A stretch of 35,399 bases of DNA from an uncultured Verrucomicrobiota bacterium. Lineage in GTDB: Bacteria; Verrucomicrobiota; Verrucomicrobiia; Chthoniobacterales; JACTMZ01. A model generated the notes under the pieces. It was not told the origin of the DNA. It made no database searches and saw only the letters and a list, made by a program, of their open reading frames with translations. The stretch is taken from NCBI GenBank assembly GCA_903953565.1, contig CAJBKE010000047.1, positions 1 to 35,399 of the forward strand, written 5' to 3'. A program made the translations under genes and the position numbers. The stretch's first letter is position 1; each line of letters begins with the position of its first letter. Shown here in pieces: positions 4,359 through 23,594 of the stretch.

Positions 4359-6293
4359 TTATTCCGAATCCTCGCCGTCAGCCGATAGGTTCTTTTTGCT
4401 TTTTTTCTCTTTCCCGGGCCTGCCTGCCTTATCGGCTTTCGGAGGCATCGGTGCGTTTGCAGACACCTTGTAATCGGTCGGCGGCAAAAGCACTGGCGCC
4501 TCCAGCTTGCCACGGTGCACTTCGATCAAGCTGAAGATGTCGTCCTTGTCATCCGCGTTGACAAGAGCGAGATCGGAGCCCTTGGTTCCGCCGTGGCGGA
4601 AGACGGCGTCATTAAGCGTGACAACTTCATGATGCCATCGCTTGTCACCCTTGCCCGTAACGGTCAGCGCCGTTTTCATCTCCGGTTTGCCGGCATCGTA
4701 ATCCAGCTTCCAGGTCGAACCTGCCGTCCCGTCATACCAGACGACGGTCACCGTCATCACCTTCGGTTCATTGCCTTCGGAGAAGCCCTCGTGCAATTTG
4801 AAAAACATCGCGTCCTTTCCGGAGGCGTGCTCGAACCCGCGCGCAAAGCGGGAATAGATGGAAGAGGTCGGAGTGATCGGGCCGCCCACGCGCCAGAGGG
4901 GAATGGACGTGGCATCGGCGTCAATCTGGTAAAGGAAGCGGCCGTAGTTATCCGGCCAGATGTCCCAGCCCACGTCGTTATAACCGGTTTGGGTGTCGCG
5001 CTGCCGGACTTGGTCCAGCAACAGGCCATTCTTGTCATCCACCGCCGCGCCATACTTCGCGTACGCGGCGCAGATTTTCAGCATGCGATCCGCATTCTTG
5101 CGTTGGGCAGGTCCGAACTCTGCCTCGGGATAAGCCTTGGTATCGGCGGCATCCAATCCTTTGTGCAGGGCACAGAAGGCGCCGGTGGCGGTCTTGGGAT
5201 AGATCTGTCCGGCGTATCGGTTGAAAAAGTAGAAGGAATAGTCGAAGCCCTGTTCCTTGCACGCATCCATGGCGCTCTTGGTGACATCCCAGACGCTCTG
5301 CCCGCCGTTGAGGGCGTTTACCGCGCCCCAGTAGAAACCGAGCGGGACGTTGAGCTGATACCACGGGTGCCGCCAAGTTTGATCCATCTCCGAGCGGCGG
5401 AACAGCGTCAGCCCCTTGGGATCAAGGAGGTAGGGTGTCCACTGGTCATACAACGAGCGTTCGCCGGACAGATGGTGCCCGCGCGAGAGCGCTCCGTTCT
5501 TGATGCCGAAGCTGCCGTGGACGTGGTTGGTCACCCATTCCCACTCTTTGAGGAAACCCTCTTGGGCTTCGACCTCGTCTTCGTCCGAGCCGATGACCGG
5601 CCCGACGGCGTTGAAAAGCAGATCGATTTTAGGCTCATCGGCACTGCCTGCGAAGGTCTTCACAAACAGGTCGAAGGTCTCCAAGCGGAACTCCCGCCAC
5701 GCGGGAGCGCTGCGGGGCAGATCGTATTTGCTCTCTATGGCCGTGCCTTTGTAGGGGGTTTCATCACCAGTGCACCCCGTCTTGATCTGGATGAAGGCGA
5801 TCCGCTCCTGCTGTTCTTTCGGATAACTGCGGATGTGCTTTCCGAATTCAGTGATGAGGCGGAAATAATACGTCTTGTATTCGGGGGTCAGGTAGTAGGG
5901 GTAGCCATCCCATTTACCCTTGTGCTTCTCCTTCTCGCTCTTCGTCCTCACCTTCGGCACACCATGTTGGTAAATCCATTCCGGCGCGTCGGGACCCACA
6001 CTCAAGGATAGATAAACGAACTGATTGTTCTGAGCGGCTCTTTCCATGACTTTATCCAAGCCACTCCAGTCGAAAACTTCCGGCTGCTTTTCCAAATCGG
6101 CCCATCTCTGATCGAAAGAAAACCCTTTGAGGAACGGATACTCTTTGGGGTCAAATTTGTCCGTCCGATCCCACACCCCAAAGGCGCTGGGTGGCGGCGC
6201 GGCTTGAAGCAAGGCAAACGAGCAGGCGACCATCAGCCCGATGAGACGGACCGTTTTGGTCAAACCAGTGGCCTTGAGTTCAATTTGTTTCAT
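4359..6293 (-). CDS. Secreted GH-A-type TIM-barrel hydrolase, paralog 2
   Basis: The protein has 644 residues from the ATG at 6293. The longer frame to 6335 adds 14 residues ahead of the signal peptide and is not preferred. The signal peptide is MKQIELKATGLTKTVRLIGL followed by a hydrophobic core ending near AAPPPS. The barrel opens with FGVWDR and has GH42-like features: a DWSGLDKVMERAAQNNQ helix and a PDAPEWIY strand. Conserved E178 in TGCTGDE and E302 in SEMDQTW are candidate acid/base and nucleophile; this assignment is inferred from conservation among the three paralogs only. The C-terminal third is almost identical to the next gene upstream. The tail is lysine-rich (GKEKKSKKN). No Shine-Dalgarno is seen. 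The gene lies 53 nt after its upstream paralog, probably in one operon. A galactosidase-type activity is possible, but the substrate cannot be read from the sequence. Confidence 0.85.
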   Translation of the reverse strand: MKQIELKATGLTKTVRLIGLMVACSFALLQAAPPPSAFGVWDRTDKFDPKEYPFLKGFSFDQRWADLEKQPEVFDWSGLDKVMERAAQNNQFVYLSLSVGPDAPEWIYQHGVPKVRTKSEKEKHKGKWDGYPYYLTPEYKTYYFRLITEFGKHIRSYPKEQQERIAFIQIKTGCTGDETPYKGTAIESKYDLPRSAPAWREFRLETFDLFVKTFAGSADEPKIDLLFNAVGPVIGSDEDEVEAQEGFLKEWEWVTNHVHGSFGIKNGALSRGHHLSGERSLYDQWTPYLLDPKGLTLFRRSEMDQTWRHPWYQLNVPLGFYWGAVNALNGGQSVWDVTKSAMDACKEQGFDYSFYFFNRYAGQIYPKTATGAFCALHKGLDAADTKAYPEAEFGPAQRKNADRMLKICAAYAKYGAAVDDKNGLLLDQVRQRDTQTGYNDVGWDIWPDNYGRFLYQIDADATSIPLWRVGGPITPTSSIYSRFARGFEHASGKDAMFFKLHEGFSEGNEPKVMTVTVVWYDGTAGSTWKLDYDAGKPEMKTALTVTGKGDKRWHHEVVTLNDAVFRHGGTKGSDLALVNADDKDDIFSLIEVHRGKLEAPVLLPPTDYKVSANAPMPPKADKAGRPGKEKKSKKNLSADGEDSE

Positions 6294-6346
6294 AGAGTTT
6301 TTGTGACGTCGATGTCCGTTGCAGACACCATTCAAGCAGGATCTGC

Positions 6347-8275
6347 TTATTCCTGATTTGTGGCTTCGTCCGATTTCTTTCCCTTCCTCTTTTTTCCAGA
6401 TTTGCCCGCCTTATCCGCTTTGGGCGGCATCGGTTTTTTGTCAGAAACCTTGTAATCGGTCGGCGGCAACATGACGGGCGTCTCAAGCTTGCCACGGTGG
6501 ACTTCGATCAGGCTGAAGATGTCGTCCTTGTCATCCGCGTTGACAAGAGCGAGATCGGAGCCCTTGGTTCCGCCGTGGCGGAAGACGGCGTCGTCCAGCG
6601 TGACAACTTCATGGTGCCATTGTTTGTCACCCTTGCCCGTGATGGTCAGCGCCGTCTTCATCTCCGCTTTGCCGGCATCGTAATCCAGCTTCCAGGTCGA
6701 ACCTGCCGTCCCGTCATACCAGACGACGGTCACCGTCATCACCTTGGGTTCATTGCCCTCGGAGAAGCCCTCGTGCAGTTTGAAATACATCGCGTCCTTT
6801 CCGGAGGCGTGCTCGAACCCGCGCGCAAAGCGGGAGTAGATGGAGGATGTCTGGGTGATCGGGCCGCCCACGCGCCAGAGGGGAATGGACGTGGCATCGG
6901 CGTCAATCTGGTAGAGGAAGCGGCCGTAGTTATCCGGCCAGATGTCCCAACCCACGTCGTTCAATCCAGTTTGGGTGTCCCTTTGCCGGACCTGTCCCAG
7001 CGCCAGCCCATTGGTGTCGTCCACCGCCGCGCCATACTTGGCGTAATCGGCGACAATTTTCTCCATTCGCTCGATATTTTTGCTGGAAGCATTTCCATAC
7101 TTCGCCTCCGGATAAGCCTTGGTATCGGCAGCATCCAATCCTTTGTGCAGGGCGCAGAAGGCATCCGTGGCCGTCTTCGGGTTGATTTGTCCGGCGTAGC
7201 GGTTGAAGAAATAGAAGGAGTAGTCGAAGCCCTGTTCCTTGCACGCTTCCATGGCGCTAGAAGTGATGTCCCAAATGCTTTGTCCGCTCTGCAGACCCGT
7301 GAGGGCACCCCAGTAGAAGTTGAGCGGCCGATTCACATAATACAGGGCCCGTTGCCACGTCTGGTCCATTTCCGACCGGGCAAACAAAGGAGTGCCCTGC
7401 GCAGCGATGAGTCGGGGGTTCCACGTCTCAATTTTGGTCCGCTCCCCGCTCAAGTGGTGACCGCGCCCGCTGCCGGCAATCTTGATCCCGACTCCGCCCT
7501 TGGCATTGTCCGTCACCCATTTCCACTCTTCGGAAAATCCGCGCTCGCCCTTCCCCTCGCGCTTCCCCTCGCCCTCCTCATCGCCATCCGGTTGCACGTT
7601 GTTGAACATCAGGGCAATCTCGGGCTGGTTAGAACCGCCCTGGAAGGTCTTCACAAACAAATCGAACTGCCACAGGCGGAACTCCCGCCAATCGGGGGAC
7701 TTGGTGGGCAAGTCATATTTTTTCTCAATGACATTGCCCTTGTAAGCGCACTCGTCGCCCGTGCACCCGGTCTTGACCTGAATGAACGCGATGCGCTCCT
7801 GCTTTTCTTTGGGGTAACTGCGGATGTGCTTCCCGAATTCAGTGACCAATCGCTGCAAAAGCGACTTGTATTCCGGCGAAGGATAGAAGGGATAAACTGG
7901 CCAGTTGTCGTGCATCTGGCCGCTTGTCTCCACACGCGGCACACCCTTGGTGTAGATCCACTGCGGTGCGTCCGGCCCCACATTCAAGGAAAGGTAAATG
8001 AACTGGTTCTTCTTCACCGCCGAATCCATGGCCTGATCCAAAGCGCTCCAATCAAAATCACCCGGCCGTTTTTCCACATCAGCCCAGTTTTGATTGAATG
8101 CCAATCCCTTCAGGAAGGGATAGTCCTTAGGATCAAAGGACGAGCCGCGATCCCATACCCCGAATGCGCTGGGCGGCGGCACGGCTTGAACCGGCAACAG
8201 GAATGTAGCGCCGATCAGTCCGATGAGACTGAGCGTTCTGGCCAAGCCAGTGGATTTGAATTCAATTTGTTTCAT
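6347..8275 (-). CDS. Secreted GH-A-type TIM-barrel hydrolase, paralog 3
   Basis: The protein has 642 residues from the ATG at 8275, which gives a clean signal peptide (MKQIEFKSTGLARTLSLIGL, then a hydrophobic stretch to about residue 31). An upstream in-frame ATG at 8368 also begins MKQ but adds a non-signal-like leader. The architecture matches the gene downstream: FGVWDR, DWSALDQAMD, candidate catalytic E175 in TGCTGDE and E302 in SEMDQTW, and a conserved C-terminal domain from about residue 425 (GWDIWPDNYGRFLYQ). An acidic/basic low-complexity insert (GDEEGEGKREGKGERGF, about 231-247) is absent from the paralogs. The tail is lysine-rich. About 30 nt upstream of the ATG are also shared with the downstream paralog, so the duplication included the leader. 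The role is inferred to be extracellular glycan degradation. Confidence 0.85.
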   Translation of the reverse strand: MKQIEFKSTGLARTLSLIGLIGATFLLPVQAVPPPSAFGVWDRGSSFDPKDYPFLKGLAFNQNWADVEKRPGDFDWSALDQAMDSAVKKNQFIYLSLNVGPDAPQWIYTKGVPRVETSGQMHDNWPVYPFYPSPEYKSLLQRLVTEFGKHIRSYPKEKQERIAFIQVKTGCTGDECAYKGNVIEKKYDLPTKSPDWREFRLWQFDLFVKTFQGGSNQPEIALMFNNVQPDGDEEGEGKREGKGERGFSEEWKWVTDNAKGGVGIKIAGSGRGHHLSGERTKIETWNPRLIAAQGTPLFARSEMDQTWQRALYYVNRPLNFYWGALTGLQSGQSIWDITSSAMEACKEQGFDYSFYFFNRYAGQINPKTATDAFCALHKGLDAADTKAYPEAKYGNASSKNIERMEKIVADYAKYGAAVDDTNGLALGQVRQRDTQTGLNDVGWDIWPDNYGRFLYQIDADATSIPLWRVGGPITQTSSIYSRFARGFEHASGKDAMYFKLHEGFSEGNEPKVMTVTVVWYDGTAGSTWKLDYDAGKAEMKTALTITGKGDKQWHHEVVTLDDAVFRHGGTKGSDLALVNADDKDDIFSLIEVHRGKLETPVMLPPTDYKVSDKKPMPPKADKAGKSGKKRKGKKSDEATNQE

Positions 8276-8374
8276 AAAGTTTTTCCGATGTCGTTGGGTG
8301 GTTGAGGCGCAGTTCACACAGAGCCTGCCGGTAGCGCGAGTGGCTTCCGAATAAATGAGCTGTTTCATCGTTCT

Positions 8375-9944: not shown

Positions 9945-11786
9945 TTACCGCGATTTCAAATTCTCGCAGAGTTGGGCAAACGACTCCTTGCCGTCATACT
10001 TCAGAATAACCGAATGCCGCCCGTCCAATTTGACGGGCTCGGCTTTTCCGAAGGCTTGGAGAGCATACTCCTTGGGCGTGTTGCCCCAGTTAAAGACGCC
10101 GAGATAAATCTCCTTTCCCTTGCGCGCGAGCACCAGCTCGAAGCCGTCGTTCTTTTGCGTTCCATGCTGCCAGAGATCCAGCGGCACCGTCTCGTCCATC
10201 GCCGGATACTGGAATACTTCCTTCACCAAGGCCTGACGCTCCGGCCGGAGCGTCATCAGGTTGTCGCTGTTCAGCCGAGCCGTGCCGTAGAGCTTGTTGA
10301 GGTCCGCCCACATTTGCGCTTCGTTCAACGTCATGCTGCCGCCGTGTTTGACTTTTTCCTGGGAGACGGTTTCGTCCTCGTCGACGGCCTCGCGGAAGAC
10401 CAGGTAGTCGGCATCGCCATTCCACACCTTGCCGTTCAGATAGAAGTTGCCGAGATTTGCCAGCGAGCGCTCGGGGAAGGCCTCGTATCTCGGATGAATG
10501 TCGCCACCGCTGCGCATGCCGTCCACAAATCCGATGCACGGACCGAACACCGCAGAGCAACCGAGAAAATAGGCATCCGGCCCCATGGCCTCGCGCATGG
10601 TCTGCATCCCCAGACGGAACCTCTCCACGCTGGTGATCGTGGGATCATGGGCCTTGATGCCGTTGGCCGACTTGTTCCTCGCAAGAGTGTCGTTCTTCAG
10701 CCCGTAACGCATGAAGTCCACCTTGAAATAACGTACGCCCCAGTTCTCTTTCATGTTGCGGATGCAATCGGCGATGTGCGCCCGTGCGCCTGGATGCGAG
10801 TAATCGAAGTAAATATAACGCATAACCTTGTCGCCCTTGTCATTCACCTCGACAAGCAGTTTGCCGTCCTGGTCGTGCAGGAAATATTCGGGGTGGGCTT
10901 TGTAGATCTCCGAATTCTCATCGCCCCGGAAGCCGTCGAAGTGAAGGCCGGGCGTCTTACCTTCGGAGGTGATCCGGGAAACGATCGCCTTGATGCCGCC
11001 GGGTAGGAGGTCCGGCCGCACGCTCTGGTAATCGCCGCGCTCGGTCCACCAACCGCCGTCGATCTGGATCATGTTCGCATCGGGCGCGAGTTTGTTCAGC
11101 GCGTCCATGTTCCCATAGATATCCTTGGCGGTGAAAACCCGGCCGTAGTAGTCCCATGTCGCCCAGCCTTTGAAATCAGCAGGCTTCAGTTTCTCGATAC
11201 CGTTCTCCGCCGCGATGGCCGTGCCGAATTGATCGAGCAGCGCCAGCCAGTCATCGGCGCGCCGGAGGACAATCTGTTCATACTGGATGGTCTCGCCCGG
11301 CTTGAGTTGCCTCCCCTCGCCATCGGACCAGATCTCGATGGCCCCGTCCTTGAGGGTGAAGTTCGGCAGGAAAATCCGCCAGGAAAGCGAGCCGGCGAAG
11401 AGATATTTTCCGTCCGCCAGCCGCACCACCTCATACATGTGGCTGGAGCTCTTCGCCGTTTGCGTGCCGACATTCTGACGCAGCAACGGCGTGCGGCCCA
11501 TGCAACTGCCCCCGTAGAGGACTTCCAAATCATCCGCGAGTTTTTCCGCCACCGGAATGCGCACGTTGATCCTCTCGATCGCCAGCGGCTGATCGCCCTT
11601 GTTGGAGAGCGTGATCGCCAGGCGCTGGAAACCATCCGCTTGTTCCGTCAAAGTCTGACTCGTGGTCACTGGATGGTTTGCCTTAACCTCCACAGTGATG
11701 TCAGGCCAGGCGGAACCGGCTTGAACGGACATCGTCGCGGCGCACAGAAGAGTCGCCGACATTAGAATCAACGCAGTTTGTTTCAT
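9945..11786 (-). CDS. Clan GH-D glycosidase (alpha-galactosidase / GH36-like), secreted
   Basis: The protein has 613 residues with signal peptide MKQTALILMSATLLCAATMS, then VQAG. An N-terminal beta domain (about 25-200) precedes a TIM barrel with IQIDGGWW, a KVDF strand and an RSGGD strand. D357 in YFKVDFM matches the KxD nucleophile of GH36/GH27 enzymes, and R425-D429 (RSGGD) matches the RxxxD acid/base. A small C-terminal beta domain (about 540-613) ends the protein. The expected reaction is retaining hydrolysis of terminal alpha-linked galactose or a related sugar outside the cytoplasm; the exact specificity is inferred. It is the first hydrolase after the pseudopilin gene (61 nt gap, with a hairpin between). 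It shares the MKQ start and A/T-rich leader of the TIM-barrel genes. No Shine-Dalgarno is seen. Confidence 0.88.
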   Translation of the reverse strand: MKQTALILMSATLLCAATMSVQAGSAWPDITVEVKANHPVTTSQTLTEQADGFQRLAITLSNKGDQPLAIERINVRIPVAEKLADDLEVLYGGSCMGRTPLLRQNVGTQTAKSSSHMYEVVRLADGKYLFAGSLSWRIFLPNFTLKDGAIEIWSDGEGRQLKPGETIQYEQIVLRRADDWLALLDQFGTAIAAENGIEKLKPADFKGWATWDYYGRVFTAKDIYGNMDALNKLAPDANMIQIDGGWWTERGDYQSVRPDLLPGGIKAIVSRITSEGKTPGLHFDGFRGDENSEIYKAHPEYFLHDQDGKLLVEVNDKGDKVMRYIYFDYSHPGARAHIADCIRNMKENWGVRYFKVDFMRYGLKNDTLARNKSANGIKAHDPTITSVERFRLGMQTMREAMGPDAYFLGCSAVFGPCIGFVDGMRSGGDIHPRYEAFPERSLANLGNFYLNGKVWNGDADYLVFREAVDEDETVSQEKVKHGGSMTLNEAQMWADLNKLYGTARLNSDNLMTLRPERQALVKEVFQYPAMDETVPLDLWQHGTQKNDGFELVLARKGKEIYLGVFNWGNTPKEYALQAFGKAEPVKLDGRHSVILKYDGKESFAQLCENLKSR

Positions 11787-11847: not shown

Positions 11848-12519
11848 TTAGCGACCTTTCCAGAACACCGATCCCGCGGAACCTTCCGTGTCGATCGTCT
11901 GCTTCATCGCGGTCAGGAAGGCGTCATCGACTAAATCGGCATGGCCGTCGAAAAAGGTAATGGCGCTTTTGTTGTTGTGGTAGGGCTTGATGACGTTATT
12001 TCCGGAATCCTTTAGGTTAATGGCCATGCCAGCTCCCGAGTTCATCGTGTTGCTGTCACCCAGAAGTAAGGTGGCACTGGGGCTGGTCACTTGCGCCATG
12101 CGCGTGGGTCCCCCGGAGCCGATATATGAATTGAGCCCATAGCTCGCACGGGTCACGCTGTACGTGTTACCGAGCGCCTGCATAGCGGCCATTGCGCTTG
12201 GACAACACAGCGGTTTGTAAAATTCAAGATCTCTCTGGTTGTCACCGGTTCTCTTGATATAGCCGTTACTTTCAAGCTCGGTATACCATGTGGAACCACC
12301 CCCACTGCCTGCAACCAGCACCCCAGCCTTGTCGGTGACCATGGAGAGGTAGAAAGAGCTAAATTGGCGCATGTTGGACACGCATTTGGCCCGGTCGCCT
12401 GATTCACGGACCTTGCCAAAGGCCGGCACGGCGATGGCGGCCAGCACAGCCATAATCGCTATAACAACGAGTAACTCGATGAGAGTGAAAGCAGCTTGAA
12501 ATGGGCTCCAGGTTGGCAT
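11848..12519 (-). CDS. Pseudopilin-like protein with H-X9-DG signature
   Basis: The protein has 223 residues from the ATG at 12519. The frame to 12669 adds 50 residues lacking any pilin feature and would run over the upstream promoter-like element. The prepilin leader MPTWSPFQAA precedes a FTLIELLVVIAIMAVLAAIA segment with Glu at mature position 5 (E15). The residue before the cleavage site is Ala, not the usual Gly. H181 with D191-G192 fits the prepilin-associated H-X9-DG motif that is common in Verrucomicrobiota, Lentisphaerota and Planctomycetota. Such proteins are thought to be processed by a PilD-type peptidase and inserted in the inner membrane; their function is not established. The gene is first in the hydrolase cluster and has the shared promoter-like element about 100 nt upstream. 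Confidence 0.9.
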   Translation of the reverse strand: MPTWSPFQAAFTLIELLVVIAIMAVLAAIAVPAFGKVRESGDRAKCVSNMRQFSSFYLSMVTDKAGVLVAGSGGGSTWYTELESNGYIKRTGDNQRDLEFYKPLCCPSAMAAMQALGNTYSVTRASYGLNSYIGSGGPTRMAQVTSPSATLLLGDSNTMNSGAGMAINLKDSGNNVIKPYHNNKSAITFFDGHADLVDDAFLTAMKQTIDTEGSAGSVFWKGR

Positions 12520-12618
12520 GGCGGGGAACTTTGGCCCTTGGGGGCGAGACTGTTCGGGGGATGGGATTTCGAATAAGTCGCTGGGTTCCGGCGAAGACCG
12601 AAGTTCTACACTAAATTT

Positions 12619-12643
12619 CAGCCGAATACGCAGATTATGACGG
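12619..12643 (-). promoter_or_regulatory. Shared bipartite promoter-like element upstream of pseudopilin gene
   Basis: On the minus strand this reads CCGTC, 15 nt, GGCTG, with the inner text ATAATCTGCG and TATTC. It ends about 100 nt before the pseudopilin ATG. The element matches four others in this window in both half-sites, in spacing and in orientation. As the hydrolase genes follow on the same strand with short gaps, it may drive the whole cluster. Confidence 0.6.
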
Positions 12644-12670
12644 GAAAAGCTAGCCACAGCATCCAACAAG

Positions 12671-12720: not shown

Positions 12721-13131
12721 CTAGGCGACAAATTCGACTGGCTGGATCCCCTCTTCGATCCATCGCTGGATTTCGGCGCGGGTCTTGCTGCCGCAGTTGC
12801 GCTCTTCGCGGAGGTGCTCCAGCACGTTGGTCTCTACGGCTTCACTGCGGGTGCGAATACCACGTCGTTCGAGGGCATTGACGGCGCGGCTGGATAAATG
12901 GAACAACTCGACCGCTTGGCCAAGCGAGGCCAGCGACCGGCGGTGCCTCGCGAGCATGAGCGATACGGCCTGCGGCGTGACCTTGAGCTCCCGGCCGATT
13001 TCACGAAACGAGTAGCCCAGCCCCCGCAGCGTGGCGATATCGCGAATACGGCGGGGCAGGTCGTCGACTGTCTTGCTCCTGACATCCTCCCCGGAAATGG
13101 TGGCGTTCTGTGGGTCGGTGTCGTTGTGCAT
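12721..13131 (-). CDS. HTH protein with RNA polymerase alpha-CTD-like domain
   Basis: The protein has 136 residues from the ATG at 13131. The frame to 13218 would overlap the end of the preceding surface-protein gene and lacks conserved character. Residues about 30-68 form a sigma region 4-like helix-turn-helix (LGYSFREIGRELKVTPQAVS). Residues about 74-132 align well with the C-terminal domain of the alpha subunit of RNA polymerase: LSSRAVNALERRGI, then RNCGSKTRAEI. Residues that contact DNA in E. coli alpha (R265, N268, G296, K298, S299) correspond to R82, N85, G114, K116 and T117. It is therefore probably a cytoplasmic DNA-binding regulator. It lies 83 nt after the large PEP-CTERM gene on the same strand and may be cotranscribed. 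I know of no named family with this pairing; helix-hairpin-helix proteins in general are the alternative. Confidence 0.75.
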   Translation of the reverse strand: MHNDTDPQNATISGEDVRSKTVDDLPRRIRDIATLRGLGYSFREIGRELKVTPQAVSLMLARHRRSLASLGQAVELFHLSSRAVNALERRGIRTRSEAVETNVLEHLREERNCGSKTRAEIQRWIEEGIQPVEFVA

Positions 13132-13214: not shown

Positions 13215-16200
13215 TCAAGACTTACGGAGCCAGCGCCGGGTCGCGGGCCATCCCAGCATGGCCAGAAGGCCGAGGGCGGTGATGACCGTGGAGGGTTCGG
13301 GAATGGCGGTGATGGTGAAGTAGCTGCCCTCGATGCCGGTGGTGTAATCGGCGCCGCCGAAGCCGAAATTGGCCAGATCGCCATTGCCGAAGGAATTGCT
13401 GGTGAACTGCAGTTTATTGCCCGGGAAGAAGTTTTGTACGGCGACGAGCGAACTGCCGGTGTTGGCATAATTTTGGAACTGCAATGTGCCGCTGATGCCG
13501 TTGCCGAAGTCGAGGAAGGACCCGGCGGTTATGTTGAGGTTCCCGAAAACTTCGCTCACGCCACTGGCCCGCGCGATGGTGCCGCCGGACAGCGTCACGG
13601 CCGCGCCGTCGTTCAATTGCTCGCTTTGCGAAAGAAGCAGCACGGCGCTCGAGGCAATACTGATACTGCCGGCACTGCCGGCTGCGGCGCCTACGGTTGA
13701 AGCGAGGTCGACGGTGCCGGTCCGGACATCGAGAGCGCCGGAGAATGTGTTGGCGCCCGAAAGGGTCAGGGTGCCAGCCCCGAGTTTGGTGATGCCGAGC
13801 GAGCCAGAGCCCGTGCCGGTAGAATTCGCGAGAATGTCGGTGATGCCGAAATTGCCGCCGGCCGCATTGGCGGTATCGAAGGCGATGGCGGATCCGCCGC
13901 GCAGGCCGTTGTTGTTCACCTCTCCGCCCAATCCGGTGAGGATTGTGGTCACATCCGCGGTGGAGAACTCACCGCTCCCGCCCACATTGAAACCGACCGT
14001 GCCGCCCGAGTTGACGGTGATGTTTGTCTTGTCCCAACTACCGGTGGCGCCGCCGTAAAGCGCCGTGGCCTGGGTGAATTTCAGCAATCCACCGTTGGCA
14101 TTGATCGTGGTGGTTCCGGTGTAGCTGTTCGAACCGGAAAGGGTGAGGGTGGCATTACCCGCTTTGGTGATTCCACCGTTGCCGACGACGCCGCTAAATT
14201 CCACCGAGGAATCCGTGGTGAGTGTGCGGGTGGCTCCGCCGAGGTCGACACCGGCGCTGAAGGTGAGCTTGCCGTCGTTTGTCGCATTGCCCAGGATGAC
14301 GTTGCCACCGACGGTGACCGCATTCAAAATCGTGCGGTTCGCGGTGCTGCCGCTCGAGAGCGTGCCGCCATTGAGAGCGAGGCTGTCCGTGCCAATGGCA
14401 CTGCTGGTGATCGCGCCGACCGAGCCAACGCTGGCCGCACCCAGCTGTAGGGTGCCCGCGCTGAGAGTGGTGCCGCCGCTATAGGTGCTGGCCCTGTTGA
14501 GAGCGACCGTCCCGGCGGTGGTCTTGTTCGCGCCCGCCGTGCCGGCGAGAACCGCCGAGGAGCTGCCGCTTTGGAGATCATAGGCTGTGATGCTCGTCAG
14601 GATGCCCGACGTGCCGGTGCCTGTAATCGCGCCGCCGGTGAGCTTCACTCCATTGACCGTATCGGTATTGCCGCCCAGCGCGAAGGTGCCAGCGGCGACT
14701 TCCACATCGGAAGCGTTGTTGATCTGGTTAGCAGCACCGAGTGTCAGAGTTCCTGTGCCACTGACCAGCACATTGCCCGCGAGGGCAACCACGCCTGCGG
14801 TCTTGCTGAGCACCAAGCTGCCTGCGCTCACCGTGGTGAGACCGGTGTAGGTATTGGCGTTGCCACCGCTGAAGGTCACCGTCCCGGCGGTGGTCTTGTT
14901 CGCGCCTGCCGCGCCGGCGAGAACTGCGGCGATGTTGCCGCTGCTTTGGAAGTCGAATGCGGTGGTGCTGGTCAAAGTGCCCGAGCCGGTAATCGCGCCA
15001 CCGGTGAGCTTCAGGTTGTTGACGGTATCACTGTTGCCGCCCATCGCGAAGATGCCGTTGGTGGCGACTTCAAGGCTGGCGGTGTCCTTGATCTGGTTGG
15101 CGTTGACGATCTGCAAGGTGCCGCCATTGACGAGGGCATCGCCCGCGAGGGCAACCACGCCTGCGGTCTTGCCGAGCACCAAGCTGCCTGCGCTCACCGT
15201 GGTGAGACCGGTGTAGGTATTGGCGTTGCCACCGCTGAAGGTCACCGTCCCGGCGGTGGTCTTGTTCGCGCCCGCCGTGCCGGCGAGAATTCCCGTGACG
15301 TTGCCACTACTCTGGAAGTCGTATGCAGTGCTGCTGGTCAACACGCCAGTCGTGCCAGTGATAATACCACCGGTGAGCTTCACATTGTTGACGGTATCAC
15401 TGTTGGCACCCAGCGCGAAGGTGCCAGCGGCGACTTCCACCTGAGAAGCGTTGTTGATCTGGTCAGCAGCGCCGAGTGTCAGAGTTCCTGTGCCATTGAC
15501 CAGCACATTGCCCGCGATGGCATCGACTGCGGTCTTGTTAAGCGTGAGGCCGCCTGCGCTCACCGTGGTAAGGCCGCTGTAGGTGTTGGCGCTGGCACCG
15601 AGGAAAGTCAGCGCGCTTGCGCCTTGCTTGGTGATTCCACCGTTGCTGACGACGCCGCTAAATTCCACCGAGGAATCCGTGGTGAGTGTGCGGGTGGCTC
15701 CGCCGAGGCCCATGGTTCCGCTGAAAGTCAGCTTACCGTTATTGGCCGCGTCGCCAAGGGTGACGTTACCGCCGATGGTGGTGTTATTGGTAGGAGCCCG
15801 AGCACTAGTTGAGCTGGCAGAAATCTTGCCGCCGTTGAGGGCGAGGCTGCCTGTCCCTAGTGCGGTGTCGTTGCCGAGCAGCAGATTGCCTTGGGTCAGC
15901 GTGGTGCCACCGCTAAAAGTGTTGCCCGAGGAAATCGTGGTATTTCCACCAGTCGAGTTGATCTGCAAGGCGAACAAGGTCGTGGCGTTGGACGCACCGT
16001 TTACGTCACCGATGGTATTCAAAAAATTCACCCCGCCGGACCCTGATCCATTGATCGTCAGTGTGTAGGTGCCTGCTGACGAGAGATTATCGACCGACAC
16101 ACGATTGACGGTCAGCAGACTGCCCGAATTGTTGGCCCAGTTTTGATTGGCGACGATGCTTGCCCCCTGCGCCGCGTCAGCTGAAGCCCCAAGGGACACC

Positions 16201-16559
16201 GCGCCCGTTCCGAACTTCATCTCAATACCGCTGGAACCGATGTTCAGGCGGTTGTTGCCAGTGCCCGTCGTGATCGTGGTGCCGCCGTTGGAAGAATCAA
16301 AGACCAAGCCACCGAGGAAATAGCTGTTCGCAGCAGTCGGTTGGAACAGGTAGGACGCAGAGTTGAAAGTGGCGATGTCGGCATTTGCCGAGGTGCTGCC
16401 CGCAACAAAGCCATTAAGCCAATTTGACGTCGTAGCCCAGTTGGTCGAAGTGCCACCAGTCCAAGTGCCATCAGCGGCAGAAGCAGAGCCTGCGGCGAGG
16501 AGGCTGAGGATGATGGCGCAGGGGAGGGCTTGATTACGGAATAGGAAGGGAATGATCAT
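13215..16559 (-). CDS. Large autotransporter-associated beta-strand-repeat protein with PEP-CTERM tail
   Basis: The protein has 1,114 residues. The signal peptide covers about 1-28 (QALPCAIILSLLAAGSASA). The mature start ADGTWTGGTSTNWATTSNW is typical of these surface proteins. The body is a long Gly/Thr/Asn/Ser-rich beta-helix made of beta-strand repeat motifs such as NTYTGLTTVSAGSL and TLSGSNSYTGTTTI. The C-terminus has the PEP-CTERM sorting signal: IPEPSTVITALGLLAMLGW, then an Arg-rich end (RRWLRKS). PEP-CTERM proteins are processed by exosortases and sent to the outer surface or matrix; no exosortase is in this window. The shared promoter-like element lies about 75 nt upstream. No Shine-Dalgarno is seen. 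Its role is probably adhesion or matrix, not enzymatic. Confidence 0.9.
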   Translation of the reverse strand: MIIPFLFRNQALPCAIILSLLAAGSASAADGTWTGGTSTNWATTSNWLNGFVAGSTSANADIATFNSASYLFQPTAANSYFLGGLVFDSSNGGTTITTGTGNNRLNIGSSGIEMKFGTGAVSLGASADAAQGASIVANQNWANNSGSLLTVNRVSVDNLSSAGTYTLTINGSGSGGVNFLNTIGDVNGASNATTLFALQINSTGGNTTISSGNTFSGGTTLTQGNLLLGNDTALGTGSLALNGGKISASSTSARAPTNNTTIGGNVTLGDAANNGKLTFSGTMGLGGATRTLTTDSSVEFSGVVSNGGITKQGASALTFLGASANTYSGLTTVSAGGLTLNKTAVDAIAGNVLVNGTGTLTLGAADQINNASQVEVAAGTFALGANSDTVNNVKLTGGIITGTTGVLTSSTAYDFQSSGNVTGILAGTAGANKTTAGTVTFSGGNANTYTGLTTVSAGSLVLGKTAGVVALAGDALVNGGTLQIVNANQIKDTASLEVATNGIFAMGGNSDTVNNLKLTGGAITGSGTLTSTTAFDFQSSGNIAAVLAGAAGANKTTAGTVTFSGGNANTYTGLTTVSAGSLVLSKTAGVVALAGNVLVSGTGTLTLGAANQINNASDVEVAAGTFALGGNTDTVNGVKLTGGAITGTGTSGILTSITAYDLQSGSSSAVLAGTAGANKTTAGTVALNRASTYSGGTTLSAGTLQLGAASVGSVGAITSSAIGTDSLALNGGTLSSGSTANRTILNAVTVGGNVILGNATNDGKLTFSAGVDLGGATRTLTTDSSVEFSGVVGNGGITKAGNATLTLSGSNSYTGTTTINANGGLLKFTQATALYGGATGSWDKTNITVNSGGTVGFNVGGSGEFSTADVTTILTGLGGEVNNNGLRGGSAIAFDTANAAGGNFGITDILANSTGTGSGSLGITKLGAGTLTLSGANTFSGALDVRTGTVDLASTVGAAAGSAGSISIASSAVLLLSQSEQLNDGAAVTLSGGTIARASGVSEVFGNLNITAGSFLDFGNGISGTLQFQNYANTGSSLVAVQNFFPGNKLQFTSNSFGNGDLANFGFGGADYTTGIEGSYFTITAIPEPSTVITALGLLAMLGWPATRRWLRKS
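14791..15290. repeat. 366-bp internal repeat in the PEP-CTERM gene
   Basis: About 130 bp starting at 14791 recur almost unchanged at 15157, 366 bp apart (122 codons). The repeated text encodes TYTGLTTVSAGSLVL on one side and ANKTTAGTVTFSGGN on the other. A third, diverged copy follows near 15520. The near-identity suggests recent unit duplication in the beta-helix. Confidence 0.75.
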
Positions 16560-16634: not shown

Positions 16635-16660
16635 CAGCCGAAACGCAAATTATATGACGG
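16635..16660 (-). promoter_or_regulatory. Shared bipartite promoter-like element upstream of PEP-CTERM gene
   Basis: The minus strand reads CCGTC, 16 nt (ATATAATTTGCGTTTC), GGCTG, preceded by a T-run. It lies 76 nt upstream of the ATG at 16559. It shares the inner TGCGTTT with the copy before the sigma factor gene. Confidence 0.65.
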
Positions 16661-16726
16661 AAAAAAGTTAACTGATAAAATGTTGGAGATTTGAACGGTG
16701 AGCGGACGGAAAAAGCACCGCCCGAC

Positions 16727-21642: not shown

Positions 21643-23049
21643 TCAAAGCGGCTTCACCGCGATGCCATACATGGCATAGGGATATTTCTCGCTTTTGATA
21701 GCAAGCGCACCAAGCGTCACCGTCGCGGCGACCGGCACGTCTTTGCGCCACACAGAGTGCACGACATAGAGTTCACCATTGGCATCCGGCTTGAGCTTTT
21801 TCGTTTCAACCAGATCCGGCCACCAAGGACCACTGCGCAAGCGCAGCCCGGTGTCCCGAAAACCGTGCCGCAGCCATTCTGGAGGCGTGGCGCGGCTATC
21901 GAACAAAACGTAAACCGCGCAGGGACGAGACAACTCGAGGTTGATGTCGGCCAGCGGTTGGCGGTTCGCTCGACGTTGGAAGGTTCCAATAACATCAGCT
22001 CCCTCCAATTCCCGCGGAAAAAGCTGGCCGGGCAAGGCGCGCCAACAGAGTTTGCGGTGCCAGCGATGAGCGAGGGAAGCCAGCGCGCCCTCCCCCATAC
22101 CACCCGGCGTGATGGTGTAGCAGCGGTAAAAATTTGCTTTAGTGATGTTGTCCGTAACGCCCGTGATGACCGCCGAATCAGGGGCGTTCAAGCCCCGGAT
22201 CGCCAAGCGATCGCCCTTTAAGGCCAACGCCTGCAAGCGCTGAATTTTGGCTTCGCGGCTCGTCATGCGCGCCGCCTCGCCCTCATAGAGACTCGCTAGC
22301 CGATTTTCCTGCGTAGGCGGCTCCCCAGCACGGTAAACTTCAACCTCACCGTCAAGCACCACAATATCGGTGCTGCCATCCTCCCCCACCGACGCGCCGA
22401 AGCGCGTGCCAATATCCAGCAAGAGGGCGCTCGCCGTATCGAGCACGAACCCCTTGGCTTCCGATCCCACATCGATGGTGACGTTGCCAAGCAAGAGCCG
22501 CAAGCGCATCGGATCCACGAATTCCAGGGACACGGGGCCATCCAAGTCCACTACGGCTCCCGAACTAACCCGGAACCGCAACGAACCGGTGCTCATTTCC
22601 AATCGGTCCAGCGCCACCCGCTGCCCCACCTGATAGGGCGCCCCTGAAGACGCAAGGATGTCGACCATTACGCCCTTGGGGGCGGCAACCGGGGCGTCCT
22701 GATTGACGGCGACCGCCCCGCCTTGGTTGCGATCCGAAACAAGCCAAAATGCAAATGTGGCGATCAGGACCGCGGCCGCCGCCAAGGCGGCCTTGCCGAA
22801 AGGGAAAGAAATAACCTTGGATGAAGACTGAAACTCGATCGAGGGCAGGACGACCGAAGACGGCACGGCGGCGCGCCCTTGCTGCCAGGTCAGAAGGGCA
22901 TGAATCTGCATCTGCTTGGCGTAGGCGTTGCGGGCCGCGGCACTGCGGCGCAAATGCTCTTGGAACTGCCCGAGTTCTGACTCGGTGACTGTGCCCTCCA
23001 GCACCGCATGACAGAGATGTTCGAAATCCTTGGGGTCGTGGTGCTTCAT
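21643..23049 (-). CDS. FecR-like membrane protein coupled to ECF sigma factor
   Basis: The protein has 468 residues from the ATG at 23049. AAGGAGG stands 7 nt upstream, one of the few clear Shine-Dalgarno sites here, and the ATG overlaps the sigma stop by ATGA. The N-terminal helical part (residues 1-60, DFEHLCHAVLEGTVTESELG) resembles the anti-sigma-like region of planctomycete/verrucomicrobial FecR proteins. One transmembrane segment lies at about 83-103 (AALAAAAVLIATFAFWLV). A FecR domain follows at about 120-260 (VDLDGPVSLEF, LDIGTRFGASVGEDGSTDIV, LDGEVEVY). The C-terminal part, with AVYVLFDSRATPPEWLRHGF, is a domain I do not identify. It probably senses a periplasmic signal and controls the partner sigma factor. 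Its 3' end is duplicated at 18.9 kb. Confidence 0.88.
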   Translation of the reverse strand: MKHHDPKDFEHLCHAVLEGTVTESELGQFQEHLRRSAAARNAYAKQMQIHALLTWQQGRAAVPSSVVLPSIEFQSSSKVISFPFGKAALAAAAVLIATFAFWLVSDRNQGGAVAVNQDAPVAAPKGVMVDILASSGAPYQVGQRVALDRLEMSTGSLRFRVSSGAVVDLDGPVSLEFVDPMRLRLLLGNVTIDVGSEAKGFVLDTASALLLDIGTRFGASVGEDGSTDIVVLDGEVEVYRAGEPPTQENRLASLYEGEAARMTSREAKIQRLQALALKGDRLAIRGLNAPDSAVITGVTDNITKANFYRCYTITPGGMGEGALASLAHRWHRKLCWRALPGQLFPRELEGADVIGTFQRRANRQPLADINLELSRPCAVYVLFDSRATPPEWLRHGFRDTGLRLRSGPWWPDLVETKKLKPDANGELYVVHSVWRKDVPVAATVTLGALAIKSEKYPYAMYGIAVKPL

Positions 23050-23594
23050 GCCCCGGCCTCCTTCTCTTTCGCGAGGAGCAACTGGACGCAATCGGCCAGC
23101 AGTTTACGCAGGCGATAAAAGAGTGCGGCCATGGCATTCTCCGGACGGGAAAGCCGACGGGCGATATCCTGCACCGCCTCGCCCCGGCCGTAACGCGCTG
23201 CGATGAGTTCGCGCTGCCGGGCGTTCAGCTGCCCTATGCAGCTTTCCAACATCTTCATCTGGCGATCAGTTTCCTCTGAGGAATCCTCCAATTCCGCCGC
23301 CACGGTGGCCAGCAATCCATCGTCCAGCACCAACCGGGAACGCTGTCGACTTTTCCGGCAGGCCAGGACTTCAAAGCGGGCAAAAGAATAGGCCCAACGC
23401 AGAAAGGGCTGTTGCGGGTCGTATTCCGAGCACTTGCGACAGAGTTTCATGTTCGTCTCCTGCAGCACATCGTTGGCATCGTTCACCCCGCCCAACAGCG
23501 ACACGATAAAGGCATACAAGGCGCTCTGGGAAGACGTGAGCAGTTGCACGAATTCGGGCGTGGGGCCGGAGGTATTGGTGGCGGTCCTGTCCAT
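23046..23594 (-). CDS. ECF-type RNA polymerase sigma factor (Rhodopirellula/Verrucomicrobium family)
   Basis: The protein has 182 residues. Region 2 spans about 22-85 (LYAFIVSLLGGVNDANDVLQ, PFLRWAYSFARFEVLACRKS) and region 4 about 115-170 (IGQLNARQRELIAARYGRGE, VQDIARRLSRPENAMAALFY), separated by an acidic linker. Length and motifs fit the sigma-70 subfamily typical of Planctomycetota and Verrucomicrobiota (TIGR02989-like, from family knowledge). It directs core polymerase to a specific promoter set. It is translationally coupled to the fecR-like gene. The shared promoter-like element ends 20 nt upstream, so it may activate its own transcription. The gene is divergent from the aldose-epimerase gene. 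Confidence 0.9.
   Translation of the reverse strand: MDRTATNTSGPTPEFVQLLTSSQSALYAFIVSLLGGVNDANDVLQETNMKLCRKCSEYDPQQPFLRWAYSFARFEVLACRKSRQRSRLVLDDGLLATVAAELEDSSEETDRQMKMLESCIGQLNARQRELIAARYGRGEAVQDIARRLSRPENAMAALFYRLRKLLADCVQLLLAKEKEAGA

Follow-up and report, generated by a model that had tools for sequence, protein, structure and literature searches.

The window, a 35,399-nucleotide stretch of DNA from an uncultured bacterium of the Verrucomicrobiota, encodes a 136-residue protein in which a helix-turn-helix (HTH) is joined to a homologue of the C-terminal domain of the RNA polymerase α subunit (α-CTD), a domain normally known as a part of RNA polymerase. We propose, with a probability of roughly 0.55, that this small protein regulates its own operon by binding DNA with both domains, and that its α-CTD holds DNA near the −35 region in overlap or competition with the α-CTD of polymerase. 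According to this proposal, the HTH would recognize its specific site via the major groove, while the repurposed α-CTD would grip the adjacent narrow minor groove (A-tract, UP-element-like) through the residues that polymerase uses. The regulator would thereby fine-tune, and more likely restrain, sugar-use and cell-surface operons. If true, a part of the core polymerase has been turned into a regulator. The positions of the gene, its domains and the neighboring features are compiled in Table 1.

Table 1. Regulator gene, its domains and adjoining features in the window.
Feature	Position	Strand	Evidence or remark
Regulator gene	12721..13131	minus	136 aa, stop codon counted; dN/dS about 0.09–0.24 over the core among family pairs
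Helix-turn-helix domain, residues 20–66	12934..13074	minus	Pfam match sub-threshold here; 19 of 25 members match Sigma70_r4_2; pLDDT mostly 80–95
RNA polymerase α-CTD-like domain, residues 67–128	12748..12933	minus	PF03118 E = 1.5e-7; hhalign E = 1.6e-9; fold matches
Surface protein, 1114 aa, passenger-associated repeats and PEP-CTERM-like end	13215..16559	minus	PATR E = 8.4e-21, TIGR02601
Pseudopilin-like protein, prepilin N-terminal motif, co-directional downstream	11848..12669	minus	PF07963, TIGR02532
Melibiase-like glycoside hydrolase, co-directional, further downstream	9945..11786	minus	PF02065 E = 6e-9
Best-matching promoter-like sequence for the likely operon, TTATCA-18-TATAAT, upstream of the surface-protein gene	16649..16678	minus	Consensus match only

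Architecture of the regulator

The coordinates given for the gene in the original prediction proved correct, and the gene lies on the minus strand, its frame running from an ATG at 13131 to a last sense codon at 12724, with the stop codon at 12721–12723. A TTG at 13218 is an alternative start that could yield a 165-residue product, and the start of the regulator is uncertain because the N-terminus is not conserved among family members. A frame artefact was discounted, as the family is under purifying selection (pairwise dN/dS, Table 1). The predicted structure of the 136-residue protein showed a mean pLDDT of 80.6 overall and was good across most of residues 27–128. Pfam scans of the regulator yielded no match to the α N-terminal assembly domain nor to a kinase domain such as that of PglW, and the true rpoA of the same genome is a separate gene on another contig (G000:C61, L008).

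With regard to the C-terminal part, the predicted alignment with the α-CTD over its length was borne out. Residues 67–126 matched PF03118 (RNA_pol_A_CTD) with 31.5 bits against a gathering cut-off of 23.8, 24 of the 25 intact relatives matched the same Pfam family at E ≤ 0.01, and a profile of the family retrieved RpoA C-terminal domains among solved structures at E = 1e-6. Profile–profile comparison by hhalign with the CTDs of Verrucomicrobiota RpoA proteins gave a probability of 96% over 57 columns. Similarly, when an RpoA CTD profile was employed, 24 of the 25 family CTDs outscored the best composition-preserving shuffle (9.4 bits; 4381 scored). The latter result, together with the profile–profile E value, indicates that the match is not due to chance.

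The structural comparison suggested along with the original prediction was not decisive by itself. When the domain was modelled alone (pLDDT of 81.9), the top eight Foldseek matches were RpoA CTDs or RpoA chains, but with weak E values (best 0.75), and the best E value obtained with the whole-protein model, 0.54, was not significant. In VIA-align, the CTD model was superimposed on 7vpd_S, an actinobacterial α-CTD, with a Z-score of 6.7 (56 aligned residues, 2.2 Å), a range shared by unrelated folds. We therefore regard the α-CTD identity as decided by the sequence comparisons, since the fold evidence alone would not decide it.

The HTH announced for the 136-residue protein was present as well, the letters originally quoted for it being residues 38–57. 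It forms a trihelical domain spanning residues 20–66, with a recognition helix (T/S-P-Q-A-V/I-S-L-M-L) that is nearly fixed in the family. Its designation as sigma-region-4-like held to some extent: Sigma70_r4_2 matched 19 of the 25 members at E ≤ 0.01 (best E of 1e-7), but the window protein remained below the cut-off (19.3 versus 25.7 bits), HTH_38 was likewise sub-threshold, and the NarL/LuxR-type and sigma region 4 folds were its structural neighbors with tied Z-scores. The term fairly describes the fold, and an ancestry from sigma region 4 is plausible. In comparison with sigma-70 region 4 proteins and NarL/LuxR regulators, the regulator has a similar trihelical HTH but is devoid of sigma region 2, a receiver domain and a ligand-binding domain. 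The Sigma70_r4_2 matches would also suit a split sigma factor, in which this protein is the region 4 half and a separate region 2 protein its partner; this is very unlikely, given that Pfam found no sigma-70 region 2 match in the 136 residues and that the only neighbor with region 2 among those scanned with Pfam is a complete ECF sigma factor, encoded in the window at a distance of about 10 kb.

DNA-contact and sigma-contact surfaces

R82, N85, G114 and K116 align, as originally claimed, with R265, N268, G296 and K298 of E. coli α, and N112, T117 and E120 are the further counterparts of N294, S299 and E302. Residue counts were based on the 25 intact family members. The equivalents of R265, N294, G296 and E302 were invariant, those of N268 and K298 were kept in 24 members, and the S299 position was occupied by threonine in all 25. 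This contrasted with the D259 equivalent, which was leucine in 22 of 25 members, and with E261, kept in a single one, while the RpoA of the same genome retains both acidic residues as E-x-E. The positions equivalent to 285–288 were also divergent in the family. Taken against the RpoA CTD, the regulator shares nearly full-length homology and the above set of contact residues, with threonine for S299; it differs in having one inserted residue in the loop that leads to the last helices, in the absence of D259/E261 and of the α N-terminal domain, and in its linkage to an HTH.

In an rRNA promoter complex, R265 and N294 reach into the minor groove, and phosphates are contacted by K298 (PMC7822876); D259 and E261 of the α-CTD contact R603 of sigma70 (PMC5511352). 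A generic helix-hairpin-helix without conserved DNA-contact residues, the outcome that the original prediction had set against itself, is not borne out by the data, since these residues are almost fixed across the 25 relatives (24–25 of 25 per position) and constitute the most conserved feature of the domain. The same pattern bears on the unlikely alternative that the α-CTD-like part serves structure or dimerisation alone, DNA being recognized by the HTH without its help. The helical fold is indeed a common one, RAD51-like N-terminal domains and SAM domains reaching similar Z-scores; however, the invariant residues are precisely those that contact DNA, and other surfaces vary.

We consider it doubtful that the protein is a polymerase-recruiting activator, whose HTH would occupy a −35-like or upstream site and whose α-CTD mimic would bridge to sigma region 4, the beta flap or the real α-CTD, replacing the UP element. 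Such a role would be in line with the proximity of α-CTD and sigma region 4 on UP/−35 DNA in solved promoter complexes (3n97 among the fold matches) and with the position of some members at the head of operons (L092 and L093), but the counterparts of D259 and E261 have been lost and positions 285–288 have diverged. Recruitment of polymerase, one of the two modes of action originally put forward, is disfavored as far as it would run via sigma, and as the sigma-contact surface is gone, occupancy or competition is favored over recruitment with modest confidence. In the DNA-grip proposal, the loss of the surface that touches sigma-70 would leave the domain as a grip near the −35/UP region. If the grip on DNA has been kept and the sigma contact lost, the family would offer a naturally occurring separation of functions with which to study how UP elements are recognized.

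Distribution and gene surroundings of the family

The genome from which the window derives (2.86 Mb, 70 contigs; the window is contig G000:C47) contained six clear relatives with 40–63% identity, the true rpoA scoring far below. Members were found in 10 of the 11 genomes of the genus, with up to seven intact copies per genome, and the only genome without one is 65% complete. This genus is the only one of its family in the genome collection searched. Across the 213 genomes of the order, 11 of them from this genus, no two-domain protein was listed outside the genus, where RpoA and occasional HTH-only matches were seen; likewise, none was found in a 388-genome sample of the phylum, in which the weaker matches were RpoA or sigma-type HTHs. 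In a scan of contigs, family loci were all located in MAGs titled Chthoniobacter flavus, Chthoniobacterales or uncultured Verrucomicrobia, which correspond to the genomes already found, and the extra match was an HTH-only protein in Amorphus coralli. Among the genomes searched, the family is restricted to one genus. Four further copies were truncated or frameshifted (L086, L087, L106, L107), three of which match the galactokinase-linked member at 77–87% identity.

A mobile-element origin, in which a gene with a phage repressor-like HTH would have been dispersed as cargo or as a selfish element, is very improbable. The best sequence match of the HTH among PDB structures, a phage immunity repressor, was weak (E = 0.005), and the family varies in copy number and includes a few decayed copies, all of which would fit such an origin; phages, plasmids and IMG/VR, however, yielded no convincing match to the family, and several neighborhoods of its members are common to more than one genome. 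It is possible, although we put it forward only tentatively, that the family is a transcription factor class born within this lineage, whose captured α-CTD reads UP-element DNA and, having lost the sigma contact, competes with the polymerase α-CTD at UP-type promoters, and which diversified in one genus into regulators that are each specific to an operon for sugar use, microcompartments or surface proteins.

The regulator gene of the window has an operon-like placement. The surface-protein gene is co-directional and upstream, its stop codon lying 83 bases ahead of the regulator ATG, and more glycoside-hydrolase-like genes follow beyond the melibiase-like gene. Elsewhere on the minus strand of the window, a pair of similar neighboring genes (658 and 673 aa; positions 4359–8368) represents an apparent tandem duplication, the copy at 4359–6335 being weakly GH42-like, and an ECF sigma factor gene overlaps a gene for a FecR-domain protein beside surface repeat genes (21643–23594).

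Other members abut or overlap GH3 β-glucosidase genes (L081, L088, L089, L090), genes for a GH65 phosphorylase and a β-phosphoglucomutase-type HAD protein (L096, L099, L100), or pseudopilin genes with H-X9-DG ends (L102, L104, L105); in all of these except L102, the start codon of the member overlaps or abuts the stop codon of the GH3, β-phosphoglucomutase-type or pseudopilin gene. Genes for galactokinase (L098), rhamnose isomerase (L091), glucokinase (L085), GH16 (L084) and CstA (L095) lie within about 80 bases of further members. Control of surface-protein promoters in particular, as initially suspected, is not supported, given that sugar, microcompartment and pseudopilin genes predominate among the neighbors across the family. 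The location of members inside sugar-use operons suggests a regulator built to act on the promoter contacts of polymerase. Classical sugar regulators (DeoR, LacI-type, GntR-type) adjoin members at several loci and may act in partnership with them.

At three loci (L092, L093, L097), the member and a deoR gene are divergently oriented. A PduL gene follows the member at L092 and L093, succeeded at the latter by a BMC shell gene, while L097 stops at a contig edge; a rhamnulokinase-type kinase is encoded behind deoR at L093 and L097. The regulator listed for the fucose/rhamnose microcompartment loci of Planctomycetes and Verrucomicrobia is DeoR (PMC4207490). The three loci are of this published type, whose description is extended here by the small regulator. 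Family members are candidates for controlling rhamnose-microcompartment and polysaccharide operons of freshwater Verrucomicrobiota, most of which are uncultured.

Between the divergent deoR and the member at these three orthologous loci, on which the observation rests, conservation is highest in a block made up of an A7–8 tract and the TTGC that directly follows it. The block fits the proximal UP subsite consensus of E. coli, AAAAAARNR, and lends weak support to the proposed mechanism. The arrangement recurs ahead of a surface repeat protein gene in a further genome of this genus (L152); it is absent from the window and, genome-wide, no commoner than a reversed control, and the block may simply serve RpoA alone. 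Neither EM motif finding nor 6-mer counts upstream of members or their presumed operons revealed a shared operator convincingly above shuffles.

Related proteins elsewhere in the phylum

A search for the same layout in other Verrucomicrobiota, as had been recommended, yielded none with these two domains in this form among the genomes covered, but it did reveal α-CTD and sigma region 4 joined in other ways. Complete sigma-70 factors (regions 1.2, 2, 3 and 4) with a C-terminal α-CTD are encoded at L134 1474–2751 (genome G178) and L133 463–1713 (G100), with Pfam E values for the α-CTD of 7e-15 and 4e-16, respectively, and a matching 417-residue homologue is present in G369 (L146); these are all three genomes examined of one other Verrucomicrobiota family. 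In several families of the phylum, proteins of about 350–390 residues (L135, L137, L140, L141) carry an N-terminal α-CTD, then sigma region 4 and then a further C-terminal part. The regulator shares with all these fusions an α-CTD joined to an HTH of the sigma region 4 type. They differ, however, in being 350–1200 residues long and in having the opposite domain order or being complete sigma factors of about 420 residues, and they were not found as homologues of the family over both domains.

The initial statement that no named family combines this pair stood insofar as none was present in Pfam, NCBIfam or PHROGs and none emerged from literature searches for an α-CTD/HTH family; the pairing of α-CTD and sigma region 4 itself, on the other hand, recurs elsewhere in the phylum. 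Because similar pairings exist there in other arrangements, the family is not a new category but a new minimal form of a wider theme, of which we found no description. PglW of BREX likewise combines a helical domain resembling the α-CTD with HTH modules in a protein other than RpoA (PMC12839542); it is a large kinase of a defence system with many domains, whereas the regulator has 136 residues and resides in operons for sugar use and surface proteins.

One to three α-CTD matches were also seen in each of several large proteins (L139 1–1710, L138, L136), two of which match sigma region 4 as well, and a PglW-like kinase with an α-CTD is encoded at L143 in an open frame of about 1427 residues.
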